This document shows positions 1,533 through 12,515 of a DNA stretch of 64,000 nucleotides, in pieces. Made by a program: the position numbers and the translations under genes. Source of the stretch: Lachnospiraceae bacterium (lineage in GTDB: Bacteria > Bacillota > Clostridia > Lachnospirales > Lachnospiraceae); NCBI GenBank assembly GCA_024680055.1, contig JAILCP010000058.1:83740-147739 (forward strand), written 5' to 3'. Each line of letters opens with the position of its first letter. Position 1 is the first letter of the stretch. The notes below the pieces were generated by a model. It did no database searches. It was given only the letters and a program-made list of their open reading frames with translations, and had not been told where the DNA came from.

Positions 1533-1563
1533 GGGGTATGACGTTTCTGTCATACCCCATTTT
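1533..1563. terminator. Bidirectional intrinsic terminator between convergent genes
   Basis: A perfect 10-bp stem GGGGTATGAC / GTCATACCCC with a 6-nt loop is followed by ATTTTTAT on the plus strand and by a T-rich run on the minus strand. It sits between metG (rightward) and the AP2/HNH-like gene (leftward). The TGA stop of the leftward gene lies inside the stem. Confidence 0.85.
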
Positions 1564-2353
1564 TATATGGTAAAAGTGCATGTAAGTACTTGGTTGGCAA
1601 GGTAATGGAAGAGTAGATGATGGCATATTCCCGGTTGGTACATTCATCAATGAAATTGATGGGGAAATTTTTGTCAAAACCGGCATCCTTTGCAGCATCC
1701 ACCGCCTTGTTGTAGGCAATGGCCGCTTTTATCTCATCCTGGTAGTATCCAATGATGTAATCGCCGTTTAAATGAATTTTTACCTGATAGGCATTCTTTT
1801 TACGGTGAATGCATTTGGCCACTCCAAAAAAACGATTGATCACCTCCACATTTTCGTAACGATAGTCCGTATCGTCTCCGTTGACAAAAATGTAATCTCG
1901 TCCTTTTACACCGTGAGGTTTAATTCCATAACGAGAGGTTATGGTAACCTGCATTCCATAGTCTGCCACAAAATAGTGTCCGCCCCGGGCAGAAATGGTT
2001 CTGGAACTGTAGTAGAAAAGGTCGTCCAAATCAAATTTTAAATCCAGAGTGGGAGATAAGAAGTACTGAAAATAGTTTTGCCTTACATAAATAGGTGTTT
2101 TAATGTAAATCTTGTTATCCCGAAAATTCAGTAGGGTCACAATTTTAGAAAACAAAAGAGTGGACTTTGAAAAGTCGCTGTCTATGGTAATGTCCTTGTT
2201 TTTTAAAAGTTCCATAGCATCCAAATAAGCCTTAAAAGCTACTTCTTCATCAGAGTAACTTCCAAGGCTAATGTGCTTGTTGTTGTATGTAATACCGGCG
2301 CGATAGTAGGTTTCGCCGCTTTTTTTGGTGGCCTTAGCAACTCCCGGTAACAT
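1550..2353 (-). CDS. Protein with two AP2-like domains flanking a degenerate HNH core
   Basis: 267 aa. Residues about 3-52 and 177-227 each read like an AP2 DNA-binding domain: both open with GVAK, then a Tyr-rich beta sheet, then ISLGSYSDEEVAFKAY or IIGYYQDEIKAAIAY. Between them, GRDYIFVNGDDTDYRYEN (151-168) lines up with the HNH_3 core (vdHingn..dNr..N), but the catalytic His positions are Tyr153 and a non-His residue. Residues 55-120 are unrecognised. Known biology: HNH-AP2 proteins are phage-type homing endonucleases. Inference: this is a catalytically dead, domesticated derivative, perhaps a DNA-binding regulator. The start is supported by an AAAGGAGAG site. It lies directly behind the terminator of the cheX-like gene. 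Confidence 0.72.
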   Translation of the reverse strand: MLPGVAKATKKSGETYYRAGITYNNKHISLGSYSDEEVAFKAYLDAMELLKNKDITIDSDFSKSTLLFSKIVTLLNFRDNKIYIKTPIYVRQNYFQYFLSPTLDLKFDLDDLFYYSSRTISARGGHYFVADYGMQVTITSRYGIKPHGVKGRDYIFVNGDDTDYRYENVEVINRFFGVAKCIHRKKNAYQVKIHLNGDYIIGYYQDEIKAAIAYNKAVDAAKDAGFDKNFPINFIDECTNREYAIIYSSITLPTKYLHALLPYKNGV

Positions 2354-2366
2354 AAATCTCTCCTTT

Positions 2367-2392
2367 AAAATGGAGCTGCCAAAGCAGCTCCA
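2367..2392 (-). terminator. Intrinsic terminator/attenuator between cheX-like and AP2-like genes
   Basis: On the minus strand, TGGAGCTGC-TTTG-GCAGCTCCA is followed by TTTTAA. Only 17 nt separate the stem from the ATG of the AP2-like gene, and that gene's GGAG site begins right after the T run. The downstream gene is therefore probably transcribed only by read-through, or from a promoter inside the cheX-like gene. Confidence 0.75.
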
Positions 2393-2401
2393 AAAATATC
2401 T

Positions 2402-3289
2402 TTATTTTGCAAATGTGATTAAAAAGTTTACCGTACCAAAGGTAAATGCCAATGGTAATAAATAGGTGTAACCATCCGGTGCATATAACATATTATCAAT
2501 TTCTTCCGGTGCATCAATTTCCAGTTCCACAGCATCGGAATTGGACATATTCACAACAAACAAACCATTGTGAAGATTGAGGAAATCCTGAAGAGATGCA
2601 GAAACAAATTCATCGTATTCCTCAAAATTCTCACCGGCATATCTTGATGCAAAAGCAATGGCGGCCTGTTCGTTGGTTTCAATGGCAGATTGTAACTGGA
2701 AGGAACCCTCAATGCTTTGCTTTGCACCGTAATGGGTGATGTATTCCTGGAAAGGAACCAAATCCATCGGTGTAAAATCATCGCCGATAAAACGAATCAG
2801 GTTGTTAAAGAGCAACTGTAAATAACAAACTCCAACTTCGCCGTTTCTCAAATCGCTGAAATTACAGAAGTGGGTTACCATCTTCTTAAAACGATCCTTG
2901 TGATCCTCCATCATTTCCAAATCATACAATTCGGTTTCCATTTGATAATCCGCAAGCAAACGTTCCACTTCGTCATGATTTAAAATACCCTTTTCTGTTA
3001 AGCACTGAGCCAACAAAATATAACTTGGTGGCTGCTGTTCCATAAGATTATCAAGCTGTTCCTGGGTCAGATAGCCTTCTTCAATGGCAATTTCGCCAAA
3101 GCGTTCATCACGATGAGTTTGAAGAATATATACTTTCTCTACTTCCGCAGAACTCATAAGACCTGCATGAATACAAAGAGTTCCAAGCTTGGCATGGGAC
3201 TTTCCGGCTTCTGTCATACATTCTAAAAGCTCTTCTGGAGTAATAATTGCTTTACGTAATAGATAGTTACCAAATAACTGAGTAAACAT
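2402..3289 (-). CDS. CheX-like protein with N-terminal GspE/MshEN-like repeats
   Basis: 295 aa, soluble. The N-terminal third has repeated units of the type LGTLCIHAGLMSSAEVE / FGEIAIEEGYLTQEQL, like the paired helical repeats of the GspE_N/MshEN family. The C-terminal part (about 150-295) resembles CheC/CheX/FliY phosphatases of CheY-P. In place of the usual D/S-x3-E-x2-N-x3-G helix it has QDFLNLHNG, that is Asp instead of Glu, with Asn and Gly kept. It starts 3 nt after the CheY-like gene stop (GGAGGG site), so the pair is one operon, which supports a role in dephosphorylating or sensing that receiver. No other che genes are nearby. The phosphatase call is inferred from fold and context. 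Confidence 0.65.
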   Translation of the reverse strand: MFTQLFGNYLLRKAIITPEELLECMTEAGKSHAKLGTLCIHAGLMSSAEVEKVYILQTHRDERFGEIAIEEGYLTQEQLDNLMEQQPPSYILLAQCLTEKGILNHDEVERLLADYQMETELYDLEMMEDHKDRFKKMVTHFCNFSDLRNGEVGVCYLQLLFNNLIRFIGDDFTPMDLVPFQEYITHYGAKQSIEGSFQLQSAIETNEQAAIAFASRYAGENFEEYDEFVSASLQDFLNLHNGLFVVNMSNSDAVELEIDAPEEIDNMLYAPDGYTYLLPLAFTFGTVNFLITFAK

Positions 3290-3292
3290 TAG

Positions 3293-3667
3293 TTAACCCT
3301 CCACTCTATTCTTAAGTATTGTTGAAATTTGCTTGGCAACGAACGGCTTTTGAATAAAGTCGTTGGCACCTTCTTCGATGGAAGCTTTAATCAGGTTTTG
3401 CGTACCTACAGAGGATACCATAATAATGCAGGCATCATTGTCGTAGGCCTTAATGGCTTTCACGGCTTCAATTCCGTCAACTTTAGGCATCACAATATCT
3501 AAGAATACAATATCGGGATTCTCTTTCTTATATAAATCGATGGCCATTTGTCCATTGGTGGCTTCGAAGAAAAGACCGCACCCTTCTTCAATCAATACAT
3601 CCTTTAGTTGTTTTCGGGCTAAAATTGAATCATCGCAGATTAAAACTTTACAGTCTTTCAATTCCAT
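3293..3667 (-). CDS. CheY-like single-domain response regulator
   Basis: 124 aa, a stand-alone receiver domain with no output domain. The acidic pair Asp12/Asp13, phosphoacceptor Asp57 (VFLDIVMP), switch Ser85 and Lys107 (QKPF) are all present, so it should be phosphorylatable. It is first in a leftward operon with the CheX-like gene. No cognate kinase is adjacent; the two-component kinase at 4567 faces the other way from a divergent promoter. Start chosen at ATG 3667 with a GAGGTG site. A chemotaxis role is possible but not shown by the local context. Confidence 0.88.
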   Translation of the reverse strand: MELKDCKVLICDDSILARKQLKDVLIEEGCGLFFEATNGQMAIDLYKKENPDIVFLDIVMPKVDGIEAVKAIKAYDNDACIIMVSSVGTQNLIKASIEEGANDFIQKPFVAKQISTILKNRVEG

Positions 3668-6145: not shown

Positions 6146-6151
6146 ACAATC

Positions 6152-6375
6152 AACACCTGAGATGTACGACACCCCTATAATTTTTGAACCTACATCTACT
6201 TAATGGGACTCTTACATTACTGATTGGATGTCAAGCCGTAGTAACTGGCGGAAGGCAGAAGATTATGTTGCGGACACCCACCTAGCTTTCGCTAGGCGTC
6301 AAAAATATAGGAACGGCACCTTGGGCTAACTATTAAAACATTAGAAGCTGCATAGATATCTATGCAGCTTCTTTA
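6152..6375 (+). ncRNA. ssrS: Candidate 6S RNA
   Basis: This 309-bp gene-free stretch has its own promoter and terminator and folds like 6S RNA, the RNA that binds the RNA polymerase-sigma-A holoenzyme. A long closing stem pairs CCTATAATTTTTGA (6174-6187) with TCAAAAATATAGG (6299-6311). A small hairpin CCTAGC-TTTC-GCTAGG (6281-6296) sits on the 3' side, where many 6S RNAs have a central-bubble hairpin. The distal arm includes TTACT/AGTAA pairing. The length, about 190-220 nt, fits. The identification rests on architecture, not on a covariance search. Alternative: an unrelated structured RNA or leader of the SpoIID gene. Confidence 0.68.
6343..6375 (+). terminator. Terminator of the 6S-like RNA
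   Basis: Near-perfect palindrome AGAAGCTGCATAGA / TCTATGCAGCTTCT followed by a short T run (TTTAA). It lies 13 nt before the start codon of the SpoIID-like gene, so that gene depends on read-through or a nearby promoter. Confidence 0.75.
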
Positions 6376-8766: not shown

Positions 8767-9014
8767 ATATGGAAAAAGCGTAGATGGTGCATAGTAGTAC
8801 TTTATTCATCATTCGAGAGAGACGAAATCGTTGGCTGGAAGTTTTGTCATGCTCTGTTAAAGATACGAAATTCACACCGGAGCTTCTGTGTTGAAATCAG
8901 TAGGCACAGACGGGTGATACACGTTAAGTATATTCATGAGAGCCTGCAATGCAGGAATCAGGGTGGTAACGCGGAGTACAGCTTCGTCCCTTATTAGGGA
9001 CGAAGCTTTTTTTA
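8767..9014 (+). promoter_or_regulatory. T-box riboswitch (tRNA-Phe) controlling pheST
   Basis: The T-box signature AGGGTGGTAACGCGG is at 8960-8974, with the TGGT that pairs with the tRNA acceptor end. It is followed by a strong terminator: 12-bp stem AGCTTCGTCCCT / AGGGACGAAGCT (8980-9007) and eight Ts. Part of the terminator's 5' arm can instead pair with the T-box to form the antiterminator. A candidate specifier codon TTC (Phe) followed by A lies at 8871-8873 in GAAATTCACACC, matching the downstream gene. Uncharged tRNA-Phe should promote read-through into pheST and perhaps queA. Confidence 0.93.
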
Positions 9015-9059: not shown

Positions 9060-10079
9060 ATGAAAGAAAGATTACAGCAGATCAGAGAAGAAGCCATGAA
9101 GCAGATTCAGGAATCTGACGGACTTAATAAGTTAAACGAGGTCAGAGTCAATGTGCTTGGTAAAAAGGGCGAATTAACAACCATTATGAAATCCATGAAG
9201 GATTTAAGCGCAGAAGAAAGACCGAAATTTGGTCAGATGGTCAATGAAACCAGACAGGCCATTGAAACCTTAATCGAAGAAACCAAGACCAAGTTGGAAG
9301 CTGCAGAATTAGAGCTTGCCTTGGAAAAAGAAGTGATTGACGTAACACTTCCTTCAAAGAAACAGAAGGTGGGCCACGTTCATCCAAATCAATTGGCTCA
9401 AAAGGAAGTGGAAGATATTTTCATCGGTATGGGTTATGAAGTGGAAGAAGGACCGGAAATTGAGTACGATTACTACAATTTCGAAGCTTTAAATATTCCA
9501 CCAAATCACCCGGCAAAGGACGAGCAGGATACCTTTTACATCACTCCGGATATTGTGCTTCGTACCCAGACCTCTTCGGTACAGATTCATGCAATGGAAA
9601 AAGGAAAACTTCCTCTTCGAATGATTGCACCGGGTAGAGTATTCCGTTCCGATGAAGTGGATGCAACCCATTCACCATCTTTCCACCAGATTGAAGGCCT
9701 TGTGGTGGACAAAGGAATTACCTTTGCAGATTTAAAGGGAACCCTGGAAGTATTTGCAAAGAAAATGTTTGGTGAAGATACCAAGGTAAAATTCAGACCG
9801 CATCATTTTCCGTTTACCGAGCCAAGTGCAGAAATGGATATGTCATGCTTTAAATGCGGCGGTAAGGGATGCCGATTCTGTAAAGGATCCGGCTGGATTG
9901 AGATTCTTGGATGCGGTATGGTGCACCCGGACGTGTTAAAGAGATGCAATATTGATACCAATGAGTATTCCGGATTTGCCTTCGGAGTTGGTCTTGAGCG
10001 TATTGCTTTATTGAAATATGAAATTGATGATATGCGTCTTTTATACGAAAATGACGATAGATTTTTAGATCAGTTCTAG
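9060..10079 (+). CDS. pheS: Phenylalanyl-tRNA synthetase alpha subunit
   Basis: 339 aa class II synthetase subunit. It forms the alpha2-beta2 enzyme with PheT and charges tRNA-Phe. An N-terminal coiled-coil (1-100) is followed by the catalytic core with motif 2 ([22 protein letters not shown]), the Firmicutes-type cysteine cluster [14 protein letters not shown], and motif 3 ([14 protein letters not shown]). Start at ATG 9060 with an AAAGGAG site, 46 nt after the T-box terminator. pheT follows after 15 nt. Confidence 0.97.
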
Positions 10080-10094: not shown

Positions 10095-12515
10095 ATGAAT
10101 ACATCATTAGCTTGGATTAAAGAATATGTGCCGGACCTTGATGTTACTGCACAGGAATATACAGATGCCATGACACTTAGCGGAAATAAAGTAGAAGGTT
10201 ATGAGTGTATTGGCCAGGATTTGAAAAATATTAAAATCGGACAGATTAAAACCATAGAAAAACATCCGGACGCAGATAAATTAATTATCTGTCAGGTGGA
10301 TATGGGAGAAAAGGACCTTGTTCAAATTGTTACAGGTGCTCCAAATGTTAAAGAAGGAGATAAGGTTCCGGTTGTATTAGACGGCGGAAGTGTTGCCTGC
10401 GATCACAGCGGCCAGAGAGTACAGGGCGGCGTGAAAATCAAAAAGGGAAAACTTCGTGGCGTGGAAAGCAACGGTATGATGTGCTCCATTGAAGAACTTG
10501 GTTCTTCAAGAGATATGTATCCGGAGGCACCGGAATACGGAATTTATATTTTTGATGAGGATGCCAAGGTAGGAGATGATGTGGCTCATGCTCTTGCCCT
10601 TGACGATGTGAACTTTGAGTATGAAATCACCTCCAACCGTGTGGATTGTTTTGCGGTAATCGGAATTGCCCGTGAAGCGGCAGCCACTTTTGGAAAGGAA
10701 TTTCATTATCCGGAGATTAAAGAGACCGGAAACAGCGAAAATGCAGCGGATTATATCGATGTGGAAATCAAAGATACCGATCTTTGCTCCAGATATTGTG
10801 CAAGAGTGGTAAAGAACGTTAAAATCGGACCATCTCCAATCTGGATGCAGAGAAGATTGGCAAGTGTTGGTATTCGACCGATTAACAACATTGTAGATAT
10901 TACCAACTACATTATGGAAGAGTTTGGACAGCCAATGCACGCTTATGATCTTTCCACCATTGAAGACCATAAAATTGTGGTAAAAAGAGCCAATGACGGA
11001 GATAAATTCACTACTCTGGACGGGCAGGAACATGTGCTTGATCATGATAATTTAATGATCTGCGACGGAAAGAAAATGGTTGGTATTGCAGGAATCATGG
11101 GTGGAGAAAACTCCATGATTACAGATGAGGTAAAAGATGTATTGTTTGAGGCTGCATGTTTTGACGGAACCAACATTCGTCTTTCCGGAAAACGTCTTGG
11201 TATGAGAACGGATGCATCCGGAAAATTTGAAAAGGGACTGGATCCAAATCAGGCGCTTTTGGCCATTAACCGTGCATGTCAGTTTATGGAAGAGTTTTCT
11301 GCCGGAGAAGTGGTTGGAGGAATTGTGGATGTATATCCAACCGTCCGCACCGGAAATACGGTAAAATTTGAACCGGATAAAATCAATGAGCTTCTTGGAA
11401 TTGATATTTCTCCGGAACAGATGATTTCTTATCTTGAGAAAATTGACTTAAAATACAATAAAGAAACACAGGAAATTATGGTTCCGTCCTGGAGACAGGA
11501 TATTCATATTATGGCCGATGTGGCAGAGGAAGTTGCAAGATTCTACGGATACGATAAGATTCCGACCACATTGCCATACGGTGGGGCAACCAGCGGTGGA
11601 AGAAACAGAAAACAGACCCTTGAAATGAAGGCAAGAACGGTGGCTCATTACAACGGATTTTCACAGGCAATGACCTATTCCTTTGAAAGCCCAAAGGTAT
11701 TTGATGCATTGCTTTTACCACAGGATAGCGAGCTTCGTAAGGCGGTGACCATTACCAATCCTCTGGGTGAAGATTTTAGCGTTATGAGAACCACTTCCTT
11801 AAACGGAATGTTAACTTCACTTTCCACCAACTATAATCACAGAAATAAGAATGTAAAATTATTTGAAATGGGTAATGTTTATATTCCAAAGCAGTTACCA
11901 TTGACAGAATTGCCAAGTGAACGTATGATAATGACCTTGGGTATGTATGGTGATGGCGACTTCTATGATTTAAAAGGCGTTGTGGAAGAGATTATTTCCG
12001 AATGCGGCGTAAGAGATGCTTTGAAATTTGTACCAAACAGAGAAATTTCTTATATGCATCCGGGGCGTTGCGCAGACGTTTATGTAAATGATGAGAAGAT
12101 TGCAATGCTTGGAGAAGTACATCCTACCGTTTGCGGTAATTACAGTATTAAGGATAAGGTTTACGTTGCAGTCATTGAAATTCCGGTACTTGTGAAGTAC
12201 TCCAACTATGACTTTAAGTATGAAGGAATTGCAAAATTCCCTGCAGTGAACAGAGACTTATCCATGCTGGTTTCCAAGAACGTTTTGGCGGGAGAGATTG
12301 AACAGTGTATCCGTGAAAACGCAGGACAATACCTTGAAAAGGTGGAACTGTTTGATGTTTATGAAGGAAACCAGATTGCGGCAGGATTTAAATCACTGGC
12401 ATATTCTTTAAGCTTTAGAGCAAAGGATAAAACATTGGAAGAGGCTGAAATTACAGCGATTATGAACAAAGTAATCAAAGGCCTTTCAAAAATGAATGTA
12501 GAATTGAGGCAGTAA
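10095..12515 (+). CDS. pheT: Phenylalanyl-tRNA synthetase beta subunit
   Basis: 806 aa, normal bacterial length. Domains in order: the EMAP/OB-fold tRNA-binding domain (about 40-150, KTIEKHPDADKLIICQVD), the B3/B4 editing domain, B5, a class II-like core without the catalytic motifs, and the C-terminal FDX-ACB anticodon domain (KFPAVNRDLSMLV ... VELFDVYEG). It partners PheS and edits Tyr-tRNA-Phe. An AGGAGGG site precedes the ATG. It is co-transcribed with pheS under the T-box; queA begins 3 nt after its stop. Confidence 0.97.
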   Translation: MNTSLAWIKEYVPDLDVTAQEYTDAMTLSGNKVEGYECIGQDLKNIKIGQIKTIEKHPDADKLIICQVDMGEKDLVQIVTGAPNVKEGDKVPVVLDGGSVACDHSGQRVQGGVKIKKGKLRGVESNGMMCSIEELGSSRDMYPEAPEYGIYIFDEDAKVGDDVAHALALDDVNFEYEITSNRVDCFAVIGIAREAAATFGKEFHYPEIKETGNSENAADYIDVEIKDTDLCSRYCARVVKNVKIGPSPIWMQRRLASVGIRPINNIVDITNYIMEEFGQPMHAYDLSTIEDHKIVVKRANDGDKFTTLDGQEHVLDHDNLMICDGKKMVGIAGIMGGENSMITDEVKDVLFEAACFDGTNIRLSGKRLGMRTDASGKFEKGLDPNQALLAINRACQFMEEFSAGEVVGGIVDVYPTVRTGNTVKFEPDKINELLGIDISPEQMISYLEKIDLKYNKETQEIMVPSWRQDIHIMADVAEEVARFYGYDKIPTTLPYGGATSGGRNRKQTLEMKARTVAHYNGFSQAMTYSFESPKVFDALLLPQDSELRKAVTITNPLGEDFSVMRTTSLNGMLTSLSTNYNHRNKNVKLFEMGNVYIPKQLPLTELPSERMIMTLGMYGDGDFYDLKGVVEEIISECGVRDALKFVPNREISYMHPGRCADVYVNDEKIAMLGEVHPTVCGNYSIKDKVYVAVIEIPVLVKYSNYDFKYEGIAKFPAVNRDLSMLVSKNVLAGEIEQCIRENAGQYLEKVELFDVYEGNQIAAGFKSLAYSLSFRAKDKTLEEAEITAIMNKVIKGLSKMNVELRQ

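Follow-up and report, generated by a model that had tools for sequence, protein, structure and literature searches.

The window, a 64,000-nucleotide stretch of DNA from a Lachnospiraceae bacterium, carries on its minus strand an open reading frame (1550..2353, stop codon included) for a protein of 267 amino acids. From its N-terminus the protein consists of a predicted AP2 domain (residues 1-56; 2186..2353, minus strand), a probable degenerate HNH_3-like core (residues 64-176; 1826..2164, minus strand), a second predicted AP2 domain (residues 177-223; 1685..1825, minus strand) and, in an AlphaFold2 model, two C-terminal helices (residues 240-264; 1562..1636, minus strand). We recognised no sensing or RNA-polymerase-contacting domain in it, and the protein family to which it belongs is without annotation in Pfam or NCBIfam. 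Upstream and in the same direction lie a terminator-like hairpin (2371..2392, minus strand), a gene with an MshE-type cyclic di-GMP motif (2402..3289, minus strand) and a gene for a CheY-like single receiver domain (3293..3667, minus strand).

The AlphaFold2 model was built from an alignment of 30 relatives, with a mean column identity of about 57% among genera, and reached a mean pLDDT of 94.5. This model shows three strands and one helix in residues 5-51 and again in residues 178-223 (strands 5-9, 15-23, and 26-33 with helix 36-51 in the first domain, AP2-1; strands 178-183, 186-194, and 198-204 with helix 207-223 in the second, AP2-2), and in both copies the three-stranded sheet packs on the helix as in the AP2 fold. 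The top PDB structure matches of the model are plant AP2 domains, those of TEM1 and WRINKLED1 (E 0.016-0.1), and a profile match to WRI1 reached E 4.7e-5. When aligned with hhalign, the two domains matched each other with a probability of 97% (E 2e-11), and they matched the AP2 domains of phage HNH-AP2 enzymes with probabilities of 97% (AP2-1) and 96% (AP2-2). The AP2 regions at both ends of the window protein also matched PHROG families of HNH endonucleases (phrog_99, E 1.9e-10, in two stretches). A further set of PDB sequence matches, to designed TIM barrels, was discarded as artefacts of repeats, the E-value of each copy being near 50.

The first-pass annotation, made from the sequence alone, had described two AP2-like domains in this reading frame and had proposed a structure prediction and a search with the Pfam AP2 model (PF00847) as checks. 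The predicted structure indeed returned the order AP2, degenerate HNH-like core, AP2. The Pfam search gave a divided answer: 10 of the 30 relatives matched AP2 (best 5.5e-6), whereas the window protein alone had no match in Pfam or NCBIfam at E<=10, and the consensus of 169 sequences scored 6.7e-6 and 26.8 bits, short of the curated cut-off of 33.3 bits. Because an HNH-AP2 enzyme whose HNH site is intact likewise stays below this cut-off, at 27.1 bits, the Pfam AP2 threshold is stringent for the whole group. Together, the modelled fold, the profile matches, and the Pfam matches of the relatives place the two predicted AP2 domains well beyond chance. In the N-terminal domain K11, R18, K26, H27, I28, S29, G31, S32, and Y43 are invariant among the 30 relatives. 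This domain is under particularly strong constraint, and the invariance of K11, R18, K26, H27, and S29 suggests that its predicted DNA contacts are conserved. Members from taxonomic family f2 (L181, L182, L199, and L219) end in a third, C-terminal AP2 domain, giving the order AP2, dead HNH, AP2, AP2.

The gene had also been described as lying next to a CheY/CheX-like pair. The CheY receiver was confirmed, and the supposed CheX identity of its partner was not: the gene at 2402-3289 encodes an MshE-type cyclic di-GMP motif (NF053729, E 1.3e-16, residues 63-113) and has no CheX match in Pfam at E<=10. From their sequences, the MshE-motif gene and the lone CheY receiver look like a cyclic di-GMP-linked signalling pair. 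We compared 116 loci of the family, a sample that leans towards near relatives of the window, with names of neighbouring genes assigned from sequence reading. The threonine synthase gene thrC lies near the AP2 gene in 94 of these loci, usually in divergent orientation and often with a gene for a SleB-like hydrolase in between, and divergent sleB and thrC form the commonest context. The sleB/thrC order is also kept in taxonomic families f4, f21, and f22; the divergent neighbour is parE in f24, transketolase in f2 (three loci read), and azlCD in Pseudobutyrivibrio. The CheY/'CheX' pair is clade-specific, occurring in 43 of the 116 loci, as a rule on the far side of thrC. The window's genus has lost thrC at this locus, and the pair therefore abuts the AP2 gene; metG is convergent downstream.

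This variation across clades led us to reject a partnership with the CheY/'CheX' pair as the function of the family, and the pair is not the family trait for which its position in the window might be taken. Direct control of thrC as a conserved role was rejected in the same way: thrC is absent from the vicinity of the AP2 gene in f2, f24, Pseudobutyrivibrio, and the window's genus, so its control is not a family trait. No T-box for thrC control was found in the loci scanned. Elsewhere in the window, a T-box leader (8772-8994, plus strand; RF00230, 113 bits) is situated just upstream of two open reading frames (9060-10079 and 10095-12515), the lengths of which would fit pheS and pheT. A 6S RNA (Rfam RF00013) lies at window positions 6151-6331 on the plus strand (14591-14771 of L075), and in L040, L044, and L126 a 6S RNA is likewise encoded no more than about 10 kb from the AP2 gene.

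The hairpin at 2371..2392 lies in the 48-bp gap between the upstream gene and the AP2 gene, ahead of the ribosome-binding site of the latter. It has a 9-bp stem (-17.5 kcal/mol, z -3.5) and a U-rich tail, and the stem persists in 7 genomes of the genus although its sequence changes. In this genus the hairpin leaves no clear room for a promoter of the AP2 gene's own; such a strong hairpin in so short a gap suggests that transcription of the AP2 gene depends on read-through or on a promoter located within the upstream gene. We searched 149 non-redundant upstream regions by expectation-maximisation (EM) motif discovery and did not find a genome-wide regulon or a shared operator among them; the output consisted of promoters, ribosome-binding sites, and one sub-clade block, AAAAATATTTCTRAAWTTG. 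This AT-rich block is nearly invariant upstream of the AP2 gene in one sub-clade and sometimes occurs twice at a spacing of 30 bp. Tandem copies with GAAA-WTA-TTTC arms, 30 bp apart, are present at positions 9890 and 9920 of L126 and at 9893 and 9923 of L156. Two of the genomes searched contain an exact copy of the block, and in each of them that copy is the only one. Since the block could just as well belong to the divergent sleB promoter as be an operator, we regard it only as a lead.

We consider it fairly likely that the protein is a domesticated HNH-AP2 homing endonuclease, kept by the host chromosome as a putative site-specific DNA-binding regulator. A less probable account, which we regard as unlikely, shares with this reading both the origin and the DNA binding, and hence the evidence for the AP2, dead HNH-like, AP2 architecture, and differs in the role: the protein would be architectural or site-occluding instead of a transcription factor, for example by masking the target of an invading homing endonuclease or by organising the nucleoid. 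The lack of a fixed neighbouring gene across the order suits this account, as it would be expected of any trans-acting protein, and the uniqueness of the sub-clade block in the two searched genomes would resemble a single protected site. However, the gene is retained order-wide without a known cognate invader, it is present as one copy per genome and not as many diversifying copies, and no PADLOC model of anti-phage defence matches the protein. The last result also led us to reject a role as a defence system.

The domestication reading holds that the middle segment descends from an HNH nuclease. As a reference we aligned six phage HNH-AP2 endonucleases together with two that are encoded in genomes of the order, and we compared the alignment of 30 relatives with this set of eight. 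The whole profiles aligned over 123 columns (hhalign probability 95%, E 3.3e-8), which supports the derivation from an HNH-AP2 homing endonuclease put forward in the first-pass annotation. The core aligned with the FD..D...LHR...VDHiNGD..DNR..NLR stretch of the phage enzymes: FD..D is in register, LHR corresponds to xSR, VDHiNGD to RDYxFxNGD, and DNR..NL to DxRY.NI, and an AP2 domain follows directly. The assignment rests on this colinearity and the core alone is weakly recognisable as HNH, so we call the middle segment a probable HNH remnant.

Alternatively, the middle could be an unrelated conserved domain of order-specific origin that lies between two AP2 domains. This is what the core in isolation would suggest, as hhalign gave it a probability of 18.5% (E 0.0013), Foldseek matched no HNH structure in the PDB to the isolated 113-residue core model, and the PHROG HNH families returned a single match at E 0.31. 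An unrelated domain would not, however, be expected to keep register over the D, N-G-D, D/R, and N positions and the upstream FD..D strand, nor to have the AP2 domain directly after it exactly as in the phage enzymes. Weak matches to HNH_3 in 7 of the 30 relatives (best 0.015) and in the consensus of 169 (residues 156-174) also count against it, as do the top viral structure matches of the whole model, which are mostly HNH endonucleases (best E 7e-11). We therefore consider this alternative improbable. The HNH_3 search proposed at first pass thus held, weakly, for some of the relatives and for the consensus and failed for the window protein, which has no Pfam match.

To return to the domestication reading, we scored the catalytic positions in 169 distinct relatives. 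The first HNH histidine (S140 in the window protein; 1934..1936, minus strand) is absent from all of them. One phage reference enzyme (L255) also has Ser at this position, which alone is thus not diagnostic of inactivity. Across the junction N168-G177 (1823..1852, minus strand), the distance from the Asn of the NLR motif to the Gly of the AP2 GV motif is 9 residues in 169/169 relatives versus 25 in the reference and phage enzymes. The 16 residues missing in every relative include a helix with a conserved Asn that, judged by its spacing, corresponds to the second metal ligand of I-HmuI, N96 in the numbering of that enzyme. In the D-H motif of metal ligand and general base (D153-Y154 in the window protein; 1892..1897, minus strand), the Asp is kept in all 169 relatives, as is N168 near the base, and position 154 carries Tyr in 147 relatives, Phe in 20, and His in the remaining 2. 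The two relatives with His at the general base (L188 and L189) have Asp in place of the Asn four residues on, and the helix is still deleted. The roles of the metal-ligand and general-base residues follow earlier work (PMC2816704).

The absence of the first His and the deletion of the helix in every relative, together with the replacement of the general-base His in 167 of 169, make nuclease activity of the family very unlikely as judged from sequence. Because the helix, a second loss that the first-pass annotation had overlooked, is deleted in all members, this conclusion does not depend on the His alone. The dead core without catalytic His described at first pass was therefore borne out, and its proposed extension to all relatives as well, as no member has a complete site. 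Two defining catalytic features that we looked for are absent, and the protein is thus not a member of the HNH_3 nucleases. It is highly improbable that the family is still an active nuclease with another general base, such as Tyr. GIY-YIG enzymes have been proposed to use Tyr as general base (PMC2816704), and neither D153 nor N168 varies among the relatives; but a Tyr base does not fit the 20 relatives with Phe, the second-metal-ligand helix is gone even from the two members with His at 154, and the gene shows no mobility and one copy per genome.

Of 397 genomes sampled from the family Lachnospiraceae, 163 (about 40%) have the gene, almost always as a single copy; in the order Lachnospirales it was found in 69 of 246 sampled genomes, spread over six families. 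Outside this order, the genomes sampled from the class and phylum gave no match at E<=1e-8. All seven genomes of the window's genus have it, and those carriers that have names belong to the Lachnospiraceae, for example Roseburia, Pseudobutyrivibrio, and Parablautia. The tree of the protein family groups by taxonomic family with 5 changes, which is the minimum, and dN/dS between near pairs is 0.045-0.17; in-frame stops are very rare in the more than 200 matches. The gene is thus a single-copy, largely vertically inherited gene under purifying selection. That it is a functionless, decaying remnant of a homing endonuclease is extremely improbable: its absence from many genomes of the same taxonomic family would fit decay, but the low dN/dS, the column identity among genera, the scarcity of in-frame stops, and the retention throughout the genus do not.

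We also asked whether the gene is mobile. None of the viral-contig, phage, or plasmid records holds a true mobile copy, and we found no full-length copy on a plasmid or viral contig. Two full-length matches at 53% labelled 'Bacteriophage sp.' (MT837267.1 and MT836856.1) are mislabelled Lachnospiraceae chromosomal contigs; like the viral contig L172, they consist of bacterial DNA with leuCD, and one of the three also has citrate synthase, cheY, and thrC genes. A mobile homing endonuclease, with variable insertion points and presence in phages or introns, was therefore rejected, since the gene is single-copy and order-restricted, has clade-consistent neighbours, and lacks phage or plasmid copies. 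The same observations bear out the earlier remark that there is no sign of an active mobile element.

Having lost the cutting site and kept two plant-like AP2 DNA-binding domains, the protein probably works as a gene regulator; its DNA binding, its targets, and the regulation itself are what we infer from this architecture. In the scheme that we propose, an endonuclease with AP2 domains flanking an HNH_3 core would have been captured in an ancestor of the order and would then have lost the general-base His along with the helix that bears the second metal ligand. Loss of the helix would have joined the remaining hairpin straight onto the second AP2 domain. The two AP2 beta-sheets could then contact two sub-sites, with the dead core setting the distance between them, and occupancy near promoters would change the transcription of target genes, possibly including the gene itself and its divergent neighbour.

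Several known systems resemble parts of this scheme. Phage HNH-AP2 enzymes, including the IPA-HNH homing endonuclease genes (PMC10448857) and phrog_99, share the HNH_3 core followed by an AP2 domain. Unlike them, the family protein has an extra N-terminal AP2 domain, a replaced general-base His and a deleted second-metal-ligand helix, and its gene is chromosomal, single-copy, vertically inherited, and not mobile. The closest precedent in kind is WhiA (DUF199), a degenerate LAGLIDADG homing endonuclease that serves as a bacterial transcription factor (PMC3781837), and thus also a dead homing endonuclease kept on a Gram-positive chromosome, with the difference that WhiA is a DNA-binding regulator and the AP2 protein a putative one. 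WhiA is LAGLIDADG-derived and binds DNA by an added HTH, whereas the AP2 protein is of the HNH-AP2 class and retains the enzyme's own AP2 domains; the LAGLIDADG fold and C-terminal HTH are absent from it, as it has no Pfam match and its fold is AP2/HNH-like. CapR of the phage satellite PLE is likewise a regulator from a homing endonuclease, having evolved from the DNA-binding part of a T5orf172 endonuclease (PMC10448857), and differs in this T5orf172 origin and in its residence on a mobile satellite. Plant AP2/ERF factors, for which an origin from HNH-AP2 homing endonucleases has been proposed (PMC3794426), share the AP2 fold and, in tandem AP2 proteins such as WRINKLED1 (PDB 7wq5), two AP2 domains per protein; unlike them, the family protein is bacterial, has a dead HNH-like core between its AP2 domains, and scores below the Pfam cut-off.

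The open-access papers searched contain no description of an AP2 regulator from bacteria that has a dead HNH core, which is not proof of novelty. We give even chances to the broader proposal that these proteins form an undescribed, order-wide family of bacterial AP2 transcription factors, derived from HNH-AP2 homing endonucleases independently of the plant and apicomplexan AP2 factors and controlling a core process in Lachnospirales gut bacteria. The protein is spread over a large group of gut bacteria and has a confident structural model. If the proposal is true, the route proposed for the plant AP2 regulators would have a living example in a bacterial domestication with the dead nuclease core still in place, and this would add a second route, besides that of the LAGLIDADG-derived WhiA, from a selfish endonuclease to a bacterial regulator.
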